IMG/VR virus record: IMGVR_UViG_3300013131_000254
Coordinates: 1-23,153 of that record
Reading direction: 5' to 3' (one strand)
Source: a virus
Length of the DNA: 23,153 nt
In this document: positions 6,602-22,151 of the stretch, piece after piece
How positions within the stretch are numbered: the stretch's first letter is position 1
Layout: the number at the start of each line of letters is the position of its first letter
Translations under genes and position numbers: made by a program
The notes under the pieces: generated by a model
Seen by the model: only the letters and a program-made list of their open reading frames with translations
The model's database searches: none
Told to the model about the DNA's origin: nothing

Positions 6602-6619
6602 ATGGGTTTTCTTGATCAT
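6602..6619 (+). repeat. Upstream copy of 18-base direct repeat (MGFLDH codons)
   Basis: ATGGGTTTTCTTGATCAT forms the first six codons of the homing endonuclease gene. It matches the first 18 bases of the virion gene at 7321-7338 at 16 of 18 positions. Both differences are in third codon positions, so both copies encode MGFLDH. Similarity stops at the edge of the repeat. This marks the insertion boundary of the homing gene. Confidence 0.85.
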
Positions 6620-7318
6620 GACAACTACACTGTGTACAAAGTTACGAATACACGTAATGGAAAAGTGTACGTTGGCGTGACATCAAAATCGATTGATCAG
6701 AGATGGAAGAGTCATGTCCTCTCGTCAAGAAAAAATAGATTGGCTCTCGGTCAGGCAATTAAAAAATATGGCGAAACGAATTTCAATATAGAAGCTTTAG
6801 AAACGTGCGAGTCTAAACATCAGGCATTGGAACAAGAAAAGTTTTGGATCGAAAAGCTTAATTCTCACATTAGCGCTAATCTTGGATACAATATGACACG
6901 CGGTGGAGATGGCGTCTTTGGCTACAAGCATTCAGAAAATGCGAAGTTGTCGATGTCGGAGAAGAGAAGTGGGAGTCAGAACCATAACTTTGGCAAAAGA
7001 TGGGGTAGAACGTCACACTCACCCGATCATCTACAAATGATGTCTGAAAAACATTCAGGACGAGGAAATCCAATGTACGGTCGAAAGCACAGCGACGAGT
7101 CTAGAAAAAAGATCTCTGAAGCAAATAAGCTTAGAACTTACAAAACAACACCGGTGCTACAATACAGTCTAGACGGTAATTTTGTCAAAAGATTCGAATC
7201 TGCTCAAGAAGCGGCGCAGTCCGTGAGTGGCACCGATCATAAAATATTGGCAGTTTGCAAAGGTCATAGAAAAACTCACAAGAACTATAAGTGGCAATAT
7301 GCTGCGAAAGGCGCGTAA
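6602..7318 (+). CDS. Free-standing GIY-YIG homing endonuclease with NUMOD motifs
   Basis: The 238-residue protein would cut a specific DNA site and promote its own spread. The GIY-YIG nuclease domain covers about residues 9-95: YTVYKVTN (Tyr12) is the GIY element, YVG (Tyr23-Gly25) is the YIG element, Arg34 in DQRWKSH is the conserved Arg, and Glu79 in EQEKFWIEKLNS is the likely metal-binding Glu. The C-terminal half holds NUMOD3-like repeats (NFGKRWGRTHS-like and NPMYGRKHSDESRKKISEAN) and a NUMOD1-like DNA-binding region near TPVLQYSLDGNFVKRFESA. The first six residues, MGFLDH, are the same as those of the next gene and are not part of the nuclease fold. Base composition is more AT-rich than in neighbours (23 G/C in 60 at 6721-6780, by hand count), a sign of transfer. 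It has captured a strong RBS, AGGAG at 6588-6592. Confidence 0.93.
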   Translation: MGFLDHDNYTVYKVTNTRNGKVYVGVTSKSIDQRWKSHVLSSRKNRLALGQAIKKYGETNFNIEALETCESKHQALEQEKFWIEKLNSHISANLGYNMTRGGDGVFGYKHSENAKLSMSEKRSGSQNHNFGKRWGRTSHSPDHLQMMSEKHSGRGNPMYGRKHSDESRKKISEANKLRTYKTTPVLQYSLDGNFVKRFESAQEAAQSVSGTDHKILAVCKGHRKTHKNYKWQYAAKGA

Positions 7319-11836: not shown

Positions 11837-12412
11837 ATGAAGAGGCTCGGGTTAGACATATCGACTGCGTGCACAGGTTGGGCTGTGGCGGACGTAAACC
11901 CAGCAGGCCTGGTCACGCGGGTCGAGCTGGGTCACATTGAGCTCTCCAAGATTCAAGGCTTGATTCCCAAGGCCCTGCACGCTGAGAAGGTGATCAGGGC
12001 CCTGCAGGAGAAGCATGGGTTCGATGAGGTCTACGTGGAGGAGAACATGCAGGCCTTTCATCCCGGAGCCTCCTCGGCACAGACCATCGTGAAGCTGGCC
12101 AAGTTCAACGGCATCGTCACCTTCATCTGCCACCAGATAATCGGAAAGATGGCGACGAATGTCAACGTCAATCGTGCCCGCAAGTCGCTGGGAATCAGCC
12201 TCCAGCGCGAGAAGGCCTGTGGGATCTCCACCAAGGAGCAGGTTTTCAGGTGGGTCAGTGCGCATCCAGTCTTGAGCGACTATTCCTGGCCCTACAAGGT
12301 CCTGGGATCTGGCCCCCGGAAGGGTGAGAGGATCCTGGAGCAGCACTCCTATGATATGGCGGACGCTTTTGTCGTTGTCATGGCCGGACCTATCGTTTCG
12401 GCCGAGGAATGA
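11837..12412 (+). CDS. RuvC-like Holliday junction resolvase
   Basis: The 191-residue product has the RNase H-like fold pattern of RuvC family resolvases. The first strand LGLDIS carries Asp7, followed by CTGWAV. The second acidic site is YVEEN (Glu68/Glu69). The C-terminal site is YDMADAFVV with Asp173 and Asp176, the usual D..D pair. The enzyme would cut four-way junctions and branched DNA, which in T4 is done by the unrelated gp49 endonuclease VII before packaging. It heads a replication/recombination cassette together with the primase and the SbcD-SbcC fusion. The ATG at 11837 lacks a Shine-Dalgarno site and sits just after a TATAAT. The sequence is GC-rich with strong use of AAG, GAG and CTG codons. 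Length is close to bacterial RuvC (about 170-190 residues). Confidence 0.9.
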   Translation: MKRLGLDISTACTGWAVADVNPAGLVTRVELGHIELSKIQGLIPKALHAEKVIRALQEKHGFDEVYVEENMQAFHPGASSAQTIVKLAKFNGIVTFICHQIIGKMATNVNVNRARKSLGISLQREKACGISTKEQVFRWVSAHPVLSDYSWPYKVLGSGPRKGERILEQHSYDMADAFVVVMAGPIVSAEE

Positions 12413-12445: not shown

Positions 12446-13420
12446 GTGACCACGGTAGTAAAAAAGATCGCGCTTCTAAAAAGAGCATTTGGCGAGCCCA
12501 CTGTGTCTCGCGATCAAAAAGAAGCGCAGTTCTTCTGCCCACAGTGCAAGAAGAATGGCAAGAAGAAAAAGAAGCTGAGCATAAGGCTCGACGATGGCGT
12601 CTATCACTGTTGGGTCTGCGAGCTCAAGGGCAAGAACCTCGGGTACCTTTTTAAGACGTATGCATCAGGGCTCCAGGGTGAGCTCAGTAGTGTCGGGTTC
12701 AATCCAGGTAGTTCCGGAAGGCAGGAACCTGAGAGTGCACCAGATGAGGCCGAGAAGGTCACCATACCTGCAGGCTTTGTCCTCCTGGCAAGCAATGTCA
12801 ACAGCACCGACCCTGATGTGAAAGACTGCGTGCGCTACTGTTATTCTCGCGGTCTCACGTTGAGCGATCTCTGGTATTTCAAGCTTGGAACCTGCAGGAC
12901 TGGTAAGTTTCGTCGGCGAGTCATATTCCCGTCTTTCGACGCTGAGGGTGAGCTCAACTACTTCACCGCTCGTGCAATTGATCCAGTCACTGTGATGAAG
13001 TATGTCAACTCGAAAGTCTCCAAGTCAGAGATCATATTCAACGAAATCAACATCGACTGGAAGTCTGAGCTTGTCCTGGTCGAGGGTCCTTTCGACCTGA
13101 CAAAGACCACGGGAAACGCCGCGTGTCTTCTGGGGTCGAGCCTTTCGAAAGAGTGCGCTCTGTTCAGGCAGATAGTTAAGCATGGCACCCCCATCGTGCT
13201 AGCTCTCGATCCTGACGCTAGGAGAAAATCCCACTCGATCGCGAAGCTGTTATCGCAATATGGTGTCGATGTCAGGACTGTGGACGTTCCAACAGGAACC
13301 GACATTGGCGACATGTCCAAAAAGCAATACGACCAGCTCATGATGACTGCGGCTCCATGGCGCTCGTCCGATCGTTTGCTGCACTTAATATCCAACATCA
13401 AGTCTGGTTCTATAATCTAG
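12446..13420 (+). CDS. DNA primase, DnaG/T4 gp61-type (zinc ribbon + TOPRIM)
   Basis: The 324-residue product makes RNA primers for lagging-strand synthesis. A zinc ribbon at the N-terminus is built by Cys31-x2-Cys34 and Cys55-x2-Cys58 (CPQC and CWVC). The catalytic core follows, with RRVIFPSFDAEGELNYFTAR and KYVNS, typical of the DnaG-type RNA polymerase core. The TOPRIM domain has Glu213 (LVEGPFD) and Asp255/Asp257 (ALDPDA), with a further acidic site near GTDIGDM. Length is close to T4 gp61 (about 340 residues), and no helicase domain is fused as in T7 gp4. The start is GTG with no Shine-Dalgarno site; TACTAT at 12433-12438 lies seven bases upstream. A basic Lys run (residues 39-43) lies within the zinc ribbon. 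Confidence 0.9.
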   Translation: MTTVVKKIALLKRAFGEPTVSRDQKEAQFFCPQCKKNGKKKKKLSIRLDDGVYHCWVCELKGKNLGYLFKTYASGLQGELSSVGFNPGSSGRQEPESAPDEAEKVTIPAGFVLLASNVNSTDPDVKDCVRYCYSRGLTLSDLWYFKLGTCRTGKFRRRVIFPSFDAEGELNYFTARAIDPVTVMKYVNSKVSKSEIIFNEINIDWKSELVLVEGPFDLTKTTGNAACLLGSSLSKECALFRQIVKHGTPIVLALDPDARRKSHSIAKLLSQYGVDVRTVDVPTGTDIGDMSKKQYDQLMMTAAPWRSSDRLLHLISNIKSGSII

Positions 13421-13432
13421 TAGGAGTTTCGA

Positions 13433-16400
13433 TTGAAATTTAGATGCGCACACATTAGCGATGTCCACTGGCGCGGATTGACTCGCCACGAAGAATACAG
13501 GGCTTCGTTCACGGCCCTATTCAAGCAGCTCCGCGACCTGAATCCAAATGCCATCTTCATCGGCGGCGATATCGTCCACACCAAGACGCAGGGGATCTCT
13601 CCTGAGATCATCGACAACCTGAGCTGGTGGTTCAACGAGATGGCGAGTATTTGTCACGTGCACGTCATCCTGGGCAACCACGACGGCCTGATCCTGAATA
13701 AGGACAGGCAGGATGCCATCTCGCCTATCGTGACTGCCCTCAACAATGAGCGCATTCACCTCTACAAGAAGTCTGGCGTCTATCCGACGGGGGTACCTGG
13801 GTTCAACTGGTGCGTGTTCTCCTGTTTCGACGAGGAGGGCTGGCCCAGCGTGGCTCCGGTGCCTGGCGAGGTCAACATTGCGACATATCACGGCGCCGTT
13901 AGAGGATCTTTGACTGATGTCGACTGGCACATCGAGGGTGAGGCTGACCTTAGCTTCTTTAAGGCATACGACTTCACCTTCCTCGGGGACATCCACAAGT
14001 TCCAGTACCTAGATGATGAGAAGCGCGTCGCCTACCCCGGCTCGACCATCCAGCAGAACTACGGCGAGGACACCGGCAAGGGTTACCTGTTCTGGGAGAT
14101 CGATTCGCGCAATGACTACAAGAGCACATTCCACGAAGTGCCGCATAAGCACCCCTTCATCACCGTTGATTGGGCTGGCGACATTGCGACCACCGTCGAA
14201 ATCTGTAAGAAGTACCAGGATGGTGCGCGCTTCAGAATTCGCAAGGATGTCACGATTCCAAACACTGAGATGCGACAGCTCTTTGGAGCCCTCAGGGAGG
14301 CGAAGAATGCCGAAGAGATCGTATTCAAGAACGAGTCTGATGTCGACCCCTCATCCATCGTGCTCAGTGATGAGTCCTGTCGGCCGGCCGACCTTCGAAC
14401 TCCTGCGACTCTACAAAAATTGCTCAGGGAGTATTACGCCAATTCCACCATTGGCGATGATGAGTGGAAGAGACTCGACGATATGGCATCTCGATACCTG
14501 TCCTCGATCAAGCACAGCGATATCGCCCGAAACGTCAAGTGGTCCCTCAACAGGATGGAGTTCGATAACACCTTCTCGTACGGCAAGGGAAACAGCATCA
14601 ACTTCGATGAGCTGAGGGGGATCACCGGCATCTTCGGTCGGAACCGGAGCGGTAAGTCATCGATTCCAGGCACTCTCATGTATGGCCTCTATAACGCCAC
14701 CGACCGTGGCGCGATGAGCAACCTCCACGTGATTAACATGCGCAAGGGTCACTGTGAGGTGAGAATAGACCTCACCGCGAACAGTAAAAAGTACCGCGTT
14801 GAGAGACACTCAGTCCGCAAGACGAATCGTACCGGCGACATGAGCGCCGTCACCAATCTCAATTTCTATGAGCTCGACGAAAATGATAACACCAAGGACA
14901 TGAACGGCGAGCAGCGGAGAGAGACTGAAAAGCTCCTCCGAGAGATCGTGGGCAGTGCCGACGATTTCCTCCTCACGTCCCTGGCGTCGCAGGGCGAGAT
15001 GAATAATTTCATCAAGTATAAGGCATCACAGAGGAAGCTGATCCTGACCAAGTTCCTCGATCTCGAGCTCTTTGAGGAGATGCTGCTTCAGGCCAAGTCG
15101 GACTCTTCGACTCTCAAGGGTCGACTGTCGGCCGTGCCTGATCGCGAGTGGGGAGCGATCATTGGCGATCTCGAGCTCGAAAAGTCGGAGCTTGAAAGAA
15201 AGAAAGAAAAGCTGCAGGAAGAGCTCGATGGACTCCGGGTCAAGCTGCAGCAGGCACAGCTTAATCTTGCGACACAAAAAGACTCCAAGCTGGTGACCGC
15301 TGAGGACGTTGCAGAGCATGAGCAGTCTCTGCAGCGGTGTGGTAAGGACCTGGAGAGCAGTCGGCAGGAGCTCGACACGATAAGATCTAAGATTTCGACC
15401 TACGAAGGTAAGATCTCGAACATCAAAACCCTCAAGGCCCAATTCCCCATTGACCAGCTCAGAGAGAGAGTCAGCGCACGCCACGACCTTGAAAAGAATG
15501 TGCTCCAGCTCGAGGCCCTTCGTGATGCTGAGAAGGGCAAGCTGGCTCAGAGCAAGCGCTCCATTAAGCTCCTGGATGAGGTACCCTGTGGCGACTCATA
15601 TCCTACGTGCAGATTCATCAAGGATTCGCATGAAAGCAAGGCCTCGCTTCCAAAGCAACTCGAGGCTATAGACAGCCTGCTCGAGAGGCTGTCCGCCATC
15701 AAGAAGTCACTCGAGAGCCTGGACAAGGAGAACCTACAGGAAAAATTGAGCCGCTACGACGGGATTCTGGAAAAGGAGCGGGACATGCAAATTTCGATGT
15801 CAGGGCTCCAGGTGTCGCTTTCCAAGCTGACCACCAAGATCGAAAATCTTATCTCTCTAAAGTCTGACATGGAGAACAAGCTCGAGTCCATGAGGAGCCG
15901 GGTCGTCTCGACTGCCGAGGCCGAGAGGCTGCAGATTCTCAAGCGCCAGATAAAGGAACTCAATGACAGGGTCAATGAGAAGGACGCCGAGAGAATGTCA
16001 GCTGCCCAAATGATTGGTGCTCTAAATTCGAAGATCGAGAGAACTCTACATGAAAAGGAGAAGCACCATCAGCTCATGTCAGAGTGGAAGATATATGAGC
16101 TCTTCATGGGCGCTGTCTCCAAGAATGGCATTCCTCTAAAGATCATGTCATCCCAGCTTCCTGCGATCAACGCTGAGATCGCCAAGATTCTGCAAGGCGT
16201 CGCCGGGTTTACTGTCGAGCTCGACGCGGATCCATCATCGAGCGACATGGATATCTACCTCAACTATGGCGATTCCAAGCGCATCATCGAGTGTGGATCT
16301 GGAATGGAGAAGATGATGGCTTCACTGGCAATTCGTGTGGCCCTGATCAACATCACCTCGCTCCCAAAGTCAGACATTCTTGTCATTGATGAGGGATTTG

Positions 16401-16570
16401 GAGCCCTAGATGACTCGAACGTCGAGGCCTGCACGAGGCTCCTTGACTCCCTCAAGCGCTGGTTCAAGTCCATCTTCATCATCTCGCATGTCGATGCCGT
16501 GAAGGATAGCGTTGACAATGTCCTCGATATCACACACCATGGAATGGACGCGGCTCTAATCCATGAATAA
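13433..16570 (+). CDS. Single-chain Mre11/SbcD nuclease - Rad50/SbcC ATPase (gp47-gp46-like fusion)
   Basis: The 1045-residue protein joins two subunits that are normally separate. Residues 1-320 are a calcineurin-like phosphoesterase: Asp10-x-His12, GGD (Asp46), GNHD (81-84), His153 and GDIH (185-188). A helical linker at about 320-365 matches the place of the Rad50-binding tail of Mre11. The ABC-type ATPase starts at about 368, with Walker A GRNRSGKS (402-409). Long coiled coils run at about 570-715 and 735-890 around a hook, Cys719-x6-Cys726. The signature SGMEK (956-960), Walker B ILVIDEGFGALDD (Asp986, Glu987) and the H-loop IFIISHVD follow. It should process DNA ends for recombination-dependent replication. 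The start is TTG at 13433 with AGGAG at 13422-13426. In T4, gp47 and gp46 are separate proteins. No stop or frameshift lies between the halves. Confidence 0.93.
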   Translation: MKFRCAHISDVHWRGLTRHEEYRASFTALFKQLRDLNPNAIFIGGDIVHTKTQGISPEIIDNLSWWFNEMASICHVHVILGNHDGLILNKDRQDAISPIVTALNNERIHLYKKSGVYPTGVPGFNWCVFSCFDEEGWPSVAPVPGEVNIATYHGAVRGSLTDVDWHIEGEADLSFFKAYDFTFLGDIHKFQYLDDEKRVAYPGSTIQQNYGEDTGKGYLFWEIDSRNDYKSTFHEVPHKHPFITVDWAGDIATTVEICKKYQDGARFRIRKDVTIPNTEMRQLFGALREAKNAEEIVFKNESDVDPSSIVLSDESCRPADLRTPATLQKLLREYYANSTIGDDEWKRLDDMASRYLSSIKHSDIARNVKWSLNRMEFDNTFSYGKGNSINFDELRGITGIFGRNRSGKSSIPGTLMYGLYNATDRGAMSNLHVINMRKGHCEVRIDLTANSKKYRVERHSVRKTNRTGDMSAVTNLNFYELDENDNTKDMNGEQRRETEKLLREIVGSADDFLLTSLASQGEMNNFIKYKASQRKLILTKFLDLELFEEMLLQAKSDSSTLKGRLSAVPDREWGAIIGDLELEKSELERKKEKLQEELDGLRVKLQQAQLNLATQKDSKLVTAEDVAEHEQSLQRCGKDLESSRQELDTIRSKISTYEGKISNIKTLKAQFPIDQLRERVSARHDLEKNVLQLEALRDAEKGKLAQSKRSIKLLDEVPCGDSYPTCRFIKDSHESKASLPKQLEAIDSLLERLSAIKKSLESLDKENLQEKLSRYDGILEKERDMQISMSGLQVSLSKLTTKIENLISLKSDMENKLESMRSRVVSTAEAERLQILKRQIKELNDRVNEKDAERMSAAQMIGALNSKIERTLHEKEKHHQLMSEWKIYELFMGAVSKNGIPLKIMSSQLPAINAEIAKILQGVAGFTVELDADPSSSDMDIYLNYGDSKRIIECGSGMEKMMASLAIRVALINITSLPKSDILVIDEGFGALDDSNVEACTRLLDSLKRWFKSIFIISHVDAVKDSVDNVLDITHHGMDAALIHE

Positions 16571-16790
16571 AAAAATACCACATGACTGTCCAGTTTGCGG
16601 TCTCTTGTTCAGAGACATGAACGATATTCTTTCGTACGAAGAGTTCGAGTGCTGCACAGAGTGCCAGGACAAATTCGTTTATCGAGACATAAGCGCCTGG
16701 AAGAGAGGCGAAAGACCTCATCAAGACCTGGTGCAGCAGTTTAGAGATGAACTCCGTCGACGAGCGTCATATTTAGTTACTAAGCTATAG
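16563..16790 (+). CDS. Small zinc-ribbon protein, 75 aa
   Basis: The ATG at 16563 overlaps the end of the SbcD-SbcC gene by eight bases (ATGAATAA), so translation is probably coupled; no separate ribosome site is seen. The protein has CPVC at residues 9-12 and CTEC at 31-34 plus Cys30, a spacing that fits a zinc ribbon or treble-clef-like knuckle. The C-terminal half is charged and helical (RDELRRRASYLVTKL). I do not recognise the family. It may bind nucleic acid or act as a small adaptor for the neighbouring recombination or packaging proteins. The overlap pattern and the cysteine pairs make it a real gene; its role is open. Confidence 0.75.
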   Translation: MNKKIPHDCPVCGLLFRDMNDILSYEEFECCTECQDKFVYRDISAWKRGERPHQDLVQQFRDELRRRASYLVTKL

Positions 16791-17211: not shown

Positions 17212-18822
17212 ATGTCCATCACATCCAAGCCGGCGCAGATCAAAGAAATCCTCAGGTGCGGTAAGGATCCAGTCTACTTCATCAACAAGTACGTCAAGAT
17301 CCAACACCCGACAAAGGGAACGATACCATTCAATACGTTCCCCTTCCAGGATGAATGTATCAACGATTTTAGAAAGCATCGCTTCAATATCATTCTGAAG
17401 TCGAGGCAGCTCGGTATCTCCACCGTCGCCGCGGCCTACGCAGTCTGGATGGCGTGCTTCTACAAGGACAAGAACATCCTCATCATCGCGACTCGACTTG
17501 CGGTCGCAAAGAACTTCATCAAGAAGGTCAAAGTCGCGATTAAGTCCCTGCCCAAGTGGCTTCTGATCCCAGAGATCACGATCAATAACCAGCAGTCGAT
17601 CGAGTTCAACAACGGATCCTCCATCAAGGCAATTCCGACCTCCGAGGACGCCGGCCGCTCCGAGGCACTCTCTCTACTCATTGTCGATGAGGCTGCCTTC
17701 GTCAGGAACTTCGACACCCTGTGGACCTCGCTCTATCCCACCATCTCAACTGGTGGTCGTGCCATCATCCTCTCCACACCGAACGGTATGGGTGGACAGT
17801 ACTACGACATCTGGGCGAAGGCCGAGAACAAAGAGAATGAATTCAACCCCATCAAGCTCCCCTGGGACGTCCATCCTGAGCACGATCAGGCTTGGTTCGA
17901 GAAGGAGTGTAAGAACTTCACACAGAAGCAGATCGCCCAGGAACTGCTCTGTGACTTCGCCACTTCTGGCGACACCTACTTCAATACCGAGGAGATCCAG
18001 AAATTGAGCTTCTCGATCAGGAATCCCATTGAGAAGTGGGGGCCTGAGATGGGGGTCTGGGTCTGGAAGTACGCGCTCTCCGAGCACAAGTACGTGATAT
18101 CTGCCGACGTCGCCCGTGGAGATGCTTTCGACTACTCCGCCTTCCACGTGATAGACACTACCGACTCCGAGGTCGTGGCCGAGTTCAGGGGCAAGGTGCC
18201 TCCGGATCAGCTCGCCATTGTTCTCGCCGAGGCAGGCAAGAGGTACAATGAGGCGATGCTATGTCCTGAGAATAACACGTACGGCTACGCCGTCATCATG
18301 AAGCTGCGAGACATCGGGTACAGGAACATCTACTTCAAGAATGAGAGGGACAAGTTCAACGCCCTCTACGGGGCCGGAGTTGCAGACATCTCGAAGGCAG
18401 GCTTCACCACCTCAGGACAGAGCAGGTCCCAGATCCTCACCAAGCTCGAGGAGATGCTCCGTAATAACAGCATCAGAATTCCCTCCTCACGCTTCTACAA
18501 TGAGCTCAAGACCTTCGTCTGGACCGGCTCGAAGGCCGAGGCGCAGAAGGGCAAGCACGATGATCTCATCATGTCCCTGGCAATCGGCACCTGGCTCTAT
18601 GAGGCCACACCTCTAGGCAGTCAGGTGGCACAGGACATCAACAAGGCAATGTTAGCAGGATTCCTGCTCAATGCGACGTCGAAGGACACGGTCCTCAACC
18701 CGTGGGCTGGAAAGAACTATAACCCATTCAAGCCTCACTTGCTGCAGGGTATACCTGAAACTTCACCAGGATCCCAAGATCCTAAGACGCCCTACGGCGA
18801 TTTCAACTGGCTCATCAAGTAA
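17212..18822 (+). CDS. terL: Terminase large subunit (T4 gp17-type packaging ATPase/nuclease)
   Basis: The 536-residue protein is the DNA packaging motor and cuts the concatemer. The ATPase domain has a P-loop-like LKSRQLGIST (residues 62-71), Walker B LLIVDE (Asp159, Glu160) and the coupling motif STPNG (188-192). The C-terminal RNase H-like nuclease has Asp299 in SADVARGDAFDYS, Glu353 in CPENN and Asp450/Asp451 in KHDDL, matching the D-E-D triad of T4 gp17. The usual P-loop lysine is replaced (GIS instead of GKT); Lys63 near the start of the loop may serve, as in other terminases with a deviant Walker A. The ATG at 17212 lacks a close Shine-Dalgarno site and sits after a hairpin. The portal gene follows without the sheath and tube genes that lie between them in T4. 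No intein is present here. Confidence 0.96.
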   Translation: MSITSKPAQIKEILRCGKDPVYFINKYVKIQHPTKGTIPFNTFPFQDECINDFRKHRFNIILKSRQLGISTVAAAYAVWMACFYKDKNILIIATRLAVAKNFIKKVKVAIKSLPKWLLIPEITINNQQSIEFNNGSSIKAIPTSEDAGRSEALSLLIVDEAAFVRNFDTLWTSLYPTISTGGRAIILSTPNGMGGQYYDIWAKAENKENEFNPIKLPWDVHPEHDQAWFEKECKNFTQKQIAQELLCDFATSGDTYFNTEEIQKLSFSIRNPIEKWGPEMGVWVWKYALSEHKYVISADVARGDAFDYSAFHVIDTTDSEVVAEFRGKVPPDQLAIVLAEAGKRYNEAMLCPENNTYGYAVIMKLRDIGYRNIYFKNERDKFNALYGAGVADISKAGFTTSGQSRSQILTKLEEMLRNNSIRIPSSRFYNELKTFVWTGSKAEAQKGKHDDLIMSLAIGTWLYEATPLGSQVAQDINKAMLAGFLLNATSKDTVLNPWAGKNYNPFKPHLLQGIPETSPGSQDPKTPYGDFNWLIK

Positions 18823-18875: not shown

Positions 18876-21800
18876 ATGGCAAATGAATACAACAAGAATC
18901 TCTTTGGCAGGCTAACAAAGCTCTTCAGATCTGGTCCAGTAGTTCGTCGCCGCGTCAAGGGCATGAACCAGAAGACTGGTACGGCGTCGACGGCCATGGA
19001 GGTCTTTAGGGCAGCGCACAGCGACGTCTACAACAGCACGCTCTCTGCCTACGGCGCCTTCGACCGTATGTCTCGCTATTCAGATTTTTCGGAAATGGAG
19101 TCGACACCCGAAATTGCGTCTGCGCTCGACATCTACGCCGAGGAGTCGGTCTCCCAGGGCACCGACGGCCGGGTCCTCCACATACACTCCGATAATAGGA
19201 AGATCAAGGAGCTCCTCGAGTCGCTCTTCTATGACACCATCAACATCGAGTTCAACCTCGTCATGTGGGTCAGGAACCTCGTCAAGTACGGCGACTTCTT
19301 CCTCTTCAACGACATCTCTCCAGAGTACGGCGTCCTCAACGTGATTCCGATCTCCATCTCCGAGATCGAACGTGAGGAGGGGTTCGATCCTGCCGATCCC
19401 ATGGCAGTGCGCTACCGGTGGATCACGCAGGGCAACCGGGTTCTAGAGAACTGGCAGGTGACCCACTTCAGGTTGCTGGGCAACGACGCCTTCCTCCCCT
19501 ACGGCTCCTCCGTCCTCGAGGGAGCCCGGCGTATCTGGCGCCAATTGATCCTCATTGAGGACGCAATGTTGGTCTACCGGGTCATCAGAGCCCCGGAGCG
19601 CAGGGTCTTCTACATCGACGTCGGTAACGTGCCGCCGGAGGAGATCTCGAACTACCTGGAGCAGGCTCAGACATCCCTCAAACGCAATCCAATCGTCGAC
19701 AAGATGACCGGCAAGGTGGACCTGCGTTTCAATCCCATGGCCGTTGACCAGGACTACTTCCTGCCGGTCCGTGGTGGTGAGAGCGGGACGAAGATCGATA
19801 CCCTTGCAGGTGGTCAGAATACAGCCGCGATCGAGGACGTGCAGTACATCCAGAAGAAGCTCTTTGCGGCGCTCAAGATTCCGAAGGCGTACCTCGGTTA
19901 CGACGAGGATACTGGATGTTTCACTGGAGACACCAGGGTGTCGCTTTTCGACGGGCGCGAGGTCGAAATCGAGCGTCTCGTGGAGGAGTACAAGACAGGA
20001 AAGCAAAACTGGGTATATTCGTTCGACGCTAGTGGAAAGCCTCGTGTTGGCAAGGTCTTGAATGCCTGGGAGACGAAGAGGGTGAATGAACTTTACGTCG
20101 TTAGTCTCGACAACGGCGAAGAGATTAGATGTACTGGAAATCATCGCTTTATGATGAGGGACGGCACGTATATTCGGGCCGATGAGCTCACGCCGGGCGC
20201 GTCTTGTATGGCTCTCTATAGGAGCGTTTCCGACAAGAAAGAGGGAGACTTCGCCACGGGATATGAGAAAGTATACGATCACCAGGACACGTCCTGGATA
20301 TACACGCATAGACTAGTCGCCAGTGAGTGCTCCCTAAGACAGCATGCTTCTGTTCTCGAAGAACGCGCTTCTGTAATACATCACGCATCATACGACAAGA
20401 GAAACAATAATCCCGATCAGCTTCTTCTGATGGGAAAGAAGTCGCACGTAAAGCACCATCAGGAGCATGCTAATGTTCTGAATGAAAATTGGTGTCGCGA
20501 CAGACTTCGCTCTTCAATGAAGACCGAAGGTTACGTTAAGAAGCACCGTTTCGCTGTGCTTGATGCCTGGCGAAAGGATGATGGAACGCGGCGAAGTCTG
20601 GTCTCCAAGACCAATCGCGCTTTCAACAAAATCGAAAAGATGCAACGTACTCTGTCTGAAATGCGTGCCAATGGTCTTTATGACACGTCAGGCGTGAATT
20701 CACCGACGTGGAAGTCTCGTCCATCCTACGAGAGCATCATAAAGTGCGTGCTTGAAGATAAGCTACATATTCGCAGCCAAATCGCCAAACGCTTAGGTTG
20801 CTCCGAGGTAGGCATCAACGATACTTTGCAGAAGGAAGGAACGGATTGGAATACGTTTATCACCTCTCAAGTTGGAACAAAAAAAGGAAGAAAGACGGTC
20901 GATTCGACGATCGACTATCGTGAAATTGTTTCAATCGCAGCCTCATCTTCGAATAGAAAAGAATTTCACTCGAAAAACTTTATGAGTAGGGGTGGGTTCG
21001 AGAACTATTTGAGAAGGCAAGGTAAAAATCCGACCGAATGGTACGACGGTCACATTGGGGTTAAAAATCACAAAGTTTTGTCTGTTAGTATCATCGTCCT
21101 CGAAGAGCCCGTTCCCGTGTATGACCTCGAAATTGAAAAGTGGAGTAACTTCTCCCTGTCAGCCGGCGTCGTCGTACATAACTCCAAGGCGACGTTGGCC
21201 CAGGAGGACATCAGGTTCTCTCGCTCGATCCAGCGCATTCAGAAGACCATCCTGGCCGAGCTCAACAAGATGGCCATGATCCACCTCTACTCACACGGGT
21301 ACGAGGGCGAGGACCTCATGGACTTCACCCTCAAGCTCTCGAATCCGAGCTCCATCGCCCAGCAACAGAAGCTTGAGCTGGTCAAGTCGAAGTTTGAGAT
21401 CGCCGGAACAGCCCCTGAAGGGCTGGTCAGCCGTCGTTGGATTCGCAAGAACATCCTCGAGATGACAGATCAGGAGATCGAGGCGGTCAAGGAGGAGAAG
21501 GCAGATGACAAGCTGGAAGATGCCGCTGTTGAGGCTGCTGGGAAAGAGGAAGAGGGAGGTGACGCAGCCGGTGGTGCTGAGACCGGAGGTACTGAGACGG
21601 GCGGTGAGGAGGCAGGCGGTGAGGAAGGTGGAGGCCTCTTCTCCGGCGATCGTCCCAAGGGCACTCTTTTGACGGCTCTTCCTGGCACAGGAGATGAAGA
21701 AGACTTCGAAGCTGGGGAGTCTGACGAAGAGTTTATCACACCCTCGATCGACGACATCGAGGCACCGGTAAAAATTAGCAATCGCATTGACAAAGTCGGC

Positions 21801-22151
21801 AAGAAGCTCAACATGTTTGGCGAGCCGATCCCAAAGTCTAGGAAGAATACCACAGGTCCAGCCTCAACTGGATTCCACGATTTCAAGAGCATGACCGGTC
21901 TGGGGTCTGCTCAGAGCACTCTGCGAAATCCATACCAGAAGGATTGGCTCGCAAGTCCAGTAAAGTTTGGTGAGTCGGCCCGTGTCGACTCTCCAGAGTC
22001 AACTCTCATGAGAACGATGAATGCTCTTCGTGCCTCAAGAAAATTGGCTAAACCAGAGATACTTAAGGAAGCCGAGCAGAGCACTGGTGATAAGAGCGCC
22101 ATGCTGGAAGTCGATCTAAAATCCTTAGGGAGTGAGCTAGGTGATGAGTAA
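18876..22151 (+). CDS. Portal protein precursor (T4 gp20-type) interrupted by an intein
   Basis: The 1091-residue precursor has portal sequence on both sides of a 422-residue intein (residues 348-769). Removing it leaves a 669-residue protein. The N-extein shows typical T4-like portal features: SALDIYAEESV, VMWVRNLVKYGDFFLF, VYRVIRAPERRVFYIDVGN, DYFLPVRGG and IPKAYLGYDEDTG, in line with known portal families. The C-extein continues with SKATLAQEDIRFSRSIQRIQ. The portal is the dodecameric ring at one capsid vertex through which DNA enters and to which the terminase docks. The C-terminus holds an acidic Gly/Glu/Ala-rich stretch (about residues 888-925) and a disordered-looking tail that is unusually long. 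The gene follows the terminase and overlaps the next gene by eight bases. Without splicing the portal core would be broken, so splicing is probably essential. Confidence 0.94.
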   Translation: MANEYNKNLFGRLTKLFRSGPVVRRRVKGMNQKTGTASTAMEVFRAAHSDVYNSTLSAYGAFDRMSRYSDFSEMESTPEIASALDIYAEESVSQGTDGRVLHIHSDNRKIKELLESLFYDTINIEFNLVMWVRNLVKYGDFFLFNDISPEYGVLNVIPISISEIEREEGFDPADPMAVRYRWITQGNRVLENWQVTHFRLLGNDAFLPYGSSVLEGARRIWRQLILIEDAMLVYRVIRAPERRVFYIDVGNVPPEEISNYLEQAQTSLKRNPIVDKMTGKVDLRFNPMAVDQDYFLPVRGGESGTKIDTLAGGQNTAAIEDVQYIQKKLFAALKIPKAYLGYDEDTGCFTGDTRVSLFDGREVEIERLVEEYKTGKQNWVYSFDASGKPRVGKVLNAWETKRVNELYVVSLDNGEEIRCTGNHRFMMRDGTYIRADELTPGASCMALYRSVSDKKEGDFATGYEKVYDHQDTSWIYTHRLVASECSLRQHASVLEERASVIHHASYDKRNNNPDQLLLMGKKSHVKHHQEHANVLNENWCRDRLRSSMKTEGYVKKHRFAVLDAWRKDDGTRRSLVSKTNRAFNKIEKMQRTLSEMRANGLYDTSGVNSPTWKSRPSYESIIKCVLEDKLHIRSQIAKRLGCSEVGINDTLQKEGTDWNTFITSQVGTKKGRKTVDSTIDYREIVSIAASSSNRKEFHSKNFMSRGGFENYLRRQGKNPTEWYDGHIGVKNHKVLSVSIIVLEEPVPVYDLEIEKWSNFSLSAGVVVHNSKATLAQEDIRFSRSIQRIQKTILAELNKMAMIHLYSHGYEGEDLMDFTLKLSNPSSIAQQQKLELVKSKFEIAGTAPEGLVSRRWIRKNILEMTDQEIEAVKEEKADDKLEDAAVEAAGKEEEGGDAAGGAETGGTETGGEEAGGEEGGGLFSGDRPKGTLLTALPGTGDEEDFEAGESDEEFITPSIDDIEAPVKISNRIDKVGKKLNMFGEPIPKSRKNTTGPASTGFHDFKSMTGLGSAQSTLRNPYQKDWLASPVKFGESARVDSPESTLMRTMNALRASRKLAKPEILKEAEQSTGDKSAMLEVDLKSLGSELGDE
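19917..21182 (+). mobile_element. Intein with HNH homing endonuclease inside the portal gene
   Basis: The intein begins at Cys348 (TGT 19917-19919) with CFTGDTRVSLFDG (block A). Block B is TGNHRFMMRDG with Thr420 and His423. Block F is VPVYDLEIEKWSNFSL, and block G ends VVVHN with His768-Asn769 before Ser770, the +1 nucleophile. All residues needed for splicing are present. The central part holds an HNH-type nuclease: VIHHASYDKRNNN (500-512) through SHVKHH (523-528). A helix-turn-helix-like region follows (RSQIAKRLGCSEVGINDTL), probably for target binding. The intein DNA is more AT-rich and uses codons such as AAA, AAT and CGT more than the exteins, a sign of separate origin. The frame is unbroken, so both splicing and homing may be active. 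The insertion site is in a conserved part of the portal. Confidence 0.94.

Follow-up and report, generated by a model that had tools for sequence, protein, structure and literature searches.

The gene at positions 13433 to 16570 of the window, by which we mean the whole 23,153-nucleotide stretch of IMG/VR record IMGVR_UViG_3300013131_000254 that was analysed, very probably encodes a single-chain phage form of the Mre11-Rad50 enzyme (gp47-gp46 in T4, SbcD-SbcC in bacteria) that resects DNA ends in the service of recombination-dependent replication. This reading draws on SbcD-like and SbcC-like profile matches, invariant catalytic residues, structural matches of the predicted model, the lack of a separate pair in large relatives and the primase gene directly upstream. 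The fusion of Mre11 and Rad50 as such is not new and was already described in 2011 (Yoshida et al., 2011; PMC3175470). Our analysis adds a full phage context, the lack of a separate pair in 15 large contigs, trees of both halves and an unusual hook.

The earlier note on this DNA had proposed that one frame carries both an Mre11-like nuclease and a Rad50-like ATPase, and the frame, the Pfam and PHROGs profiles and the conserved residues all bear this out. The frame runs without interruption from a TTG start through 1045 codons to a stop at 16568-16570:

13422..13426, forward strand: AGGAG, likely ribosome-binding site of the fused gene, read directly from the letters, 6 bases 5' of the TTG
13433..16570, forward strand: fused Mre11-Rad50 gene, 1045 aa plus stop (open frame, Pfam and PHROGs)

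Pfam assigns Metallophos to residues 4-155 (E 1e-11) and AAA_23 to residues 376-661 (6e-11), while PHROGs assigns the SbcD-like phrog_100 to residues 3-357 (6e-26) and the SbcC-like phrog_77 to residues 368-1034 (2e-55). A single uninterrupted chain thus holds an SbcD/Mre11 profile in its N-terminal part and an SbcC/Rad50 profile in its C-terminal part, and a frame of this length with both profiles is not a product of chance. Judged from its sequence, the protein appears to be an enzyme of about 120 kDa with locked stoichiometry; the 1:1 ratio that had been claimed for it holds by construction of the single chain. Such an enzyme could suit structural work.

The domain anatomy was delineated with the help of an AlphaFold2 model (76 sequences, mean pLDDT 85.5, pTM 0.54), whose pTM is too low for the relative positions of the Mre11 and Rad50 halves to be reliable:

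13433..14332, forward strand: Mre11/SbcD nuclease and capping domain, residues 1-300 (Pfam Metallophos; structure match to SbcD)
14402..14506, forward strand: helix pair 324-334 and 342-358, expected Rad50-binding helix-loop-helix of Mre11 (predicted secondary structure)
14507..14536, forward strand: linker of about 10 residues, 359-368 (predicted structure)
14537..15112, forward strand: Rad50 N-terminal ATPase lobe, residues 369-560 (AAA_23, invariance, structure match)
15113..16117, forward strand: antiparallel coiled coil, residues 561-895 (long predicted helices)
16118..16567, forward strand: Rad50 C-terminal ATPase lobe, residues 896-1045, with SGMEK signature, Walker B DE 986-987, D-loop and H-loop H1019

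Model residues 1-301 match SbcD of E. coli and S. aureus (Z about 24), and residues 370-1045 match E. coli SbcC (Z 30.7). A low-confidence loop at 305-316 lies between the nuclease part and the helix pair, which from its position we expect to be the Rad50-binding segment and which agrees with the helical junction that had been anticipated between the halves. The capping and helix-loop-helix region is thus retained in the predicted structure, and the length of the linker agrees with the 9-12 residues estimated for the published fusions and argued there to suit the known complex (PMC3175470).

The catalytic motifs also lie where they had been placed from the letters: D10, H12, D46, GNHD 81-84, H153 and GDIH 185-188 in the nuclease, and Walker A 402-409, SGMEK 956-960, D986-E987 and H1019 in the ATPase. 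All metal ligands of a calcineurin-like phosphoesterase are present (D10, H12, D46, N82, H153, D186 and H188). The canonical GHxH is GDxH here, as in all aligned members, and the metal chemistry could differ with this Asp in place of the first His. The ATPase half has a complete split ABC head, in which Walker A (GRNRSGKS), Q-loop (Q520), signature, Walker B, D-loop and H-loop flank the coiled coil and are invariant or nearly so across 142 relatives. Since all catalytic and structural elements of the two-protein enzyme are retained, the word 'simplified', which the earlier note had applied to the machine, does not fit.

A first scan of viral contigs returned eight relatives, all full length, at 40-65% identity. 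An alignment-based scan then identified 558 relatives in a candidate set of 599, from which we retained the 80 best, and two further scans around other members contributed their best 80 relatives each. We scored a locus as fused when an Mre11-half and a Rad50-half profile, built separately, both matched one frame of at least 850 codons; by this measure 239 fetched loci, which encode 191 distinct proteins and lie mostly on aquatic viral contigs, carry the fusion. The scans were ranked by similarity to fused queries, so this is not an unbiased count of fused versus split forms. Among 142 non-redundant fused proteins, D10, D46, N82, H83, H153, D186 and H188 of the Mre11 half and G407, K408, S956, G957, E959, D986 and E987 of the Rad50 half show no substitutions, only gaps, and H12 and H1019 are almost invariant. 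The fusion is thus the norm in this lineage of myophages, which forms a large aquatic group. The suggestion of a distinct or unusual machine is therefore not supported, given both the fusions published in 2011 (PMC3175470) and how common the arrangement is within the phage clade, an outcome that the earlier note had itself named as refuting.

These relatives also bear on whether an assembly or sequencing error, by a lost stop or a frameshift, merged two adjacent genes. Such errors do occur: the 1009-aa 'fusion' of Listeria phage LMTA-57 differs by one base in length from more than 50 near-identical two-gene phages, so that some apparent fusions are frameshifts and call for caution. For the window we consider an error of this kind extremely improbable, because the fused frame recurs in many independent metagenomes and in several isolates, the position of the linker is conserved among relatives, and substitutions at the junction follow codon structure. 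Between the window and a 65%-identical relative, positions 14380-14640 differ at 28, 24 and 56 first, second and third codon positions, respectively, a concentration at third positions which indicates that the junction behaves as coding sequence. We reject the frameshift artefact on the strength of the independent relatives with the fused frame. The LMTA-57 frame itself (L013:2896-5925), annotated as a single recombination exonuclease, is probably a sequencing error.

A genuine fused frame might still yield two proteins, through an internal start or proteolysis, and so give an ordinary two-subunit complex. ATG codons do lie near the junction, at residues 351 and 375, but both lack a ribosome-binding site in the window, and across 142 relatives start-plus-RBS pairs were no commoner at the junction (5/142) than in control stretches (4 to 29), which means that a conserved internal start was not found there. 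We regard two products as quite unlikely, and a free Rad50 half from an internal start is unsupported by this survey.

Fusions of this kind were described in Mimivirus (R555), bacteria, plasmids, eukaryotes and Bacillus phage 0305phi8-36 (Yoshida et al., 2011; PMC3175470). The same study argued from phage-gene neighbours, including primases, and from viral size fractions that abundant aquatic homologs may belong to phages; it confirmed the fusion in a few long environmental sequences, and placement in a phage genome was not achieved (PMC3175470). The window and its relatives fit the prediction of that paper, and our census bears on the point left from 2011: the aquatic Mre11/Rad50 fusions, which are abundant, do occur in the genomes of tailed phages. 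Like R555 and the aquatic homologs as published, the window protein has an N-terminal Mre11, a short linker and a C-terminal Rad50 in one chain. It further shares with the fusions of that study the Asp replacing Pyrococcus His206 (PMC3175470), the origin in aquatic viral metagenomes, the adjoining phage primases and the occurrence of the fused form only. R555, compared here by its published description, differs in being longer (1351 aa) and in belonging to an amoeba virus.

A BFVD structure search placed fused proteins of giant viruses (Tupanvirus, Yasminevirus and Catovirus) among the best matches, at 17-22% identity and with lengths similar to that of the window protein. The same fused architecture is found in cultivated phages, namely Microcystis phage Mel-JY01 (WWT39521.1), Tenacibaculum phages pT24 and PTm1, Chryseobacterium phage MA9V-1 and Sphingomonas phage PAU (gp288), where the annotation goes no further than AAA domain protein, DNA repair or metallo-phosphoesterase. 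Labels of this kind conceal Mre11-Rad50 fusions. These proteins differ from the window protein in their identity to it, which is 28% (Mel-JY01) or less, and in having CXXC hooks; those of the Bacteroidota/PAU group also have longer coiled coils. T4 gp47-gp46 and bacterial SbcD-SbcC share with the fusion both enzymes, the gene order with the Mre11 gene first, the motifs and the fold, but they are two separately encoded proteins where the window has a single chain. T4 gp47 moreover has GHxH where the window has GDxH, and the hook of T4 gp46 is CPTC.

The gene is embedded in a phage replication and virion neighbourhood:

11837..12412, forward strand: RuvC-like Holliday junction resolvase (phrog_159, E 7e-10)
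12446..13420, forward strand: DnaG-type primase, directly upstream (phrog_47, E 5e-39)
17212..18822, forward strand: T4-type terminase large subunit (Terminase_6N, E 7e-20)
18876..22151, forward strand: T4-type portal protein with intein (Portal_T4, E 7e-76; Intein_splicing, E 5e-20)

Together, resolvase, primase, T4-type terminase and T4-type portal identify the window as a fragment of a myophage. A primase lies immediately 5' of the fused gene in 116 of the 130 loci with enough flank, and a terminase lies downstream in 63/110. Just 3' of the fused gene, positions 16563-16790 encode a 75-aa protein with two cysteine pairs (CPVC and CTEC), for which a Pfam search gave no match and which has similar stretches in 48 relatives. 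The portal intein spans about residues 351-769 and contains an HNH-endonuclease-like signal. Amid the structural genes, positions 6602-7318 encode a free-standing GIY-YIG homing endonuclease with NUMOD motifs. RNA-family and tRNA searches across the window found nothing.

In 15 viral contigs of 123-298 kb that carry the fusion, only the fused frame gave a strong SbcC-like match, and an intact separate gp47/gp46 (SbcD-SbcC) pair was not found in these possibly incomplete contigs. The same search recovered two separate genes in each of the controls, T4, Synechococcus phage S-SKS1 and Pelagibacter phage HTVC008M. The 735-kb phage LR756501 combines a fused copy with a separate gp46-like gene.

That gp46/gp47 act in resection and recombination-dependent replication is well established (PMC3175470), and the simplest reading of the fusion is the following single-chain mechanism. 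Two chains would assemble into the usual M2R2 head, with two nuclease and two ATP sites, in which the Mre11 parts would pair with each other and helices 324-358 would dock onto the base of a Rad50 coiled coil. ATP binding would close both Rad50 heads, and the hook cysteines would link the coiled coils, probably via zinc. As an active nuclease and ATPase, the enzyme would process DNA ends by resection and by opening hairpins or blocked ends. The 3' single strands so produced would feed recombination-dependent replication and genome repair in the phage, and the neighbouring primase and RuvC-like resolvase may act together with the enzyme.

The enzyme might instead have been turned to another task, namely host DNA degradation, defence or counter-defence. 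T4 gp46/gp47 are also active in host DNA degradation (AF158101 annotation), and SMC proteins of Lamassu and Jet are among the structural matches, although ranked below Mre11-Rad50. The neighbours, however, are a primase, a resolvase and virion genes with no defence island, and no MR enzyme besides the fused protein was found in the large viral contigs. A different task thus seems unlikely, and we favour end resection for phage replication.

The earlier note had named a hook; at the tip of the coiled coil lies not the usual CXXC but two apical cysteines with a wider spacing:

15587..15610, forward strand: hook C719-X6-C726 (CGDSYPTC), read directly from the letters

Because of this CX6C spacing we keep the name Rad50-like for this half and do not call it a canonical Rad50. 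In the alignment, 73 of 143 rows have CX6C and 69 have CX2C. The CX6C form marks the clade of the window protein, CXXC being kept in the sister Mel-JY01 clade and in the PAU group, and on the 143-row tree the hook type needs only three changes. CX6C is a clade-specific variant of the Rad50 apical cysteine feature, and its cysteines may join the coiled coils, probably with zinc as the bridge. A targeted literature search did not find a description of a CX6C hook. In Moorella phage MTATph1 a split SbcC carries a similarly wide hook (VPC-X7-C), which indicates that the hook variant is not tied to the fusion.

The trees are compatible with a single fusion event in the ancestor of these phages. In the Rad50-half tree one branch separates fused from split forms (89/89), and for the Mre11-half tree an AU test does not reject one fused clade (p 0.55); because both trees contain long branches, this evidence is weak. 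Several separate fusion events among phages are not required by either tree. This one-fusion reading for the phages contrasts with the recurrent fusion proposed in 2011 for all fused proteins together (PMC3175470). Two phages with related terminases, Flavobacterium phage immuto and Rhodothermus phage RM378, yielded nothing similar to SbcC or SbcD and are thus unusable as split sisters. We offer only tentatively the wider scenario of an old single phage fusion, carried by a large aquatic and Bacteroidota lineage and sharing ancestry with the giant-virus enzyme, in which one clade changed its hook from CXXC to CX6C with a different metal-dependent dimerisation.

The fused gene is broken in three loci. 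In the 484-kb phage LR756508 (L011:7944-12169) it is cut between GDIH and SLIQQN by an inserted gene; an Rfam search at this insert gave no family above threshold, and the inserted gene matches a TnsA-like endonuclease. The other two, L078 (780-1000) and L079, are interrupted at this same site in the Mre11 half by a short insert that contains an in-frame TAA.
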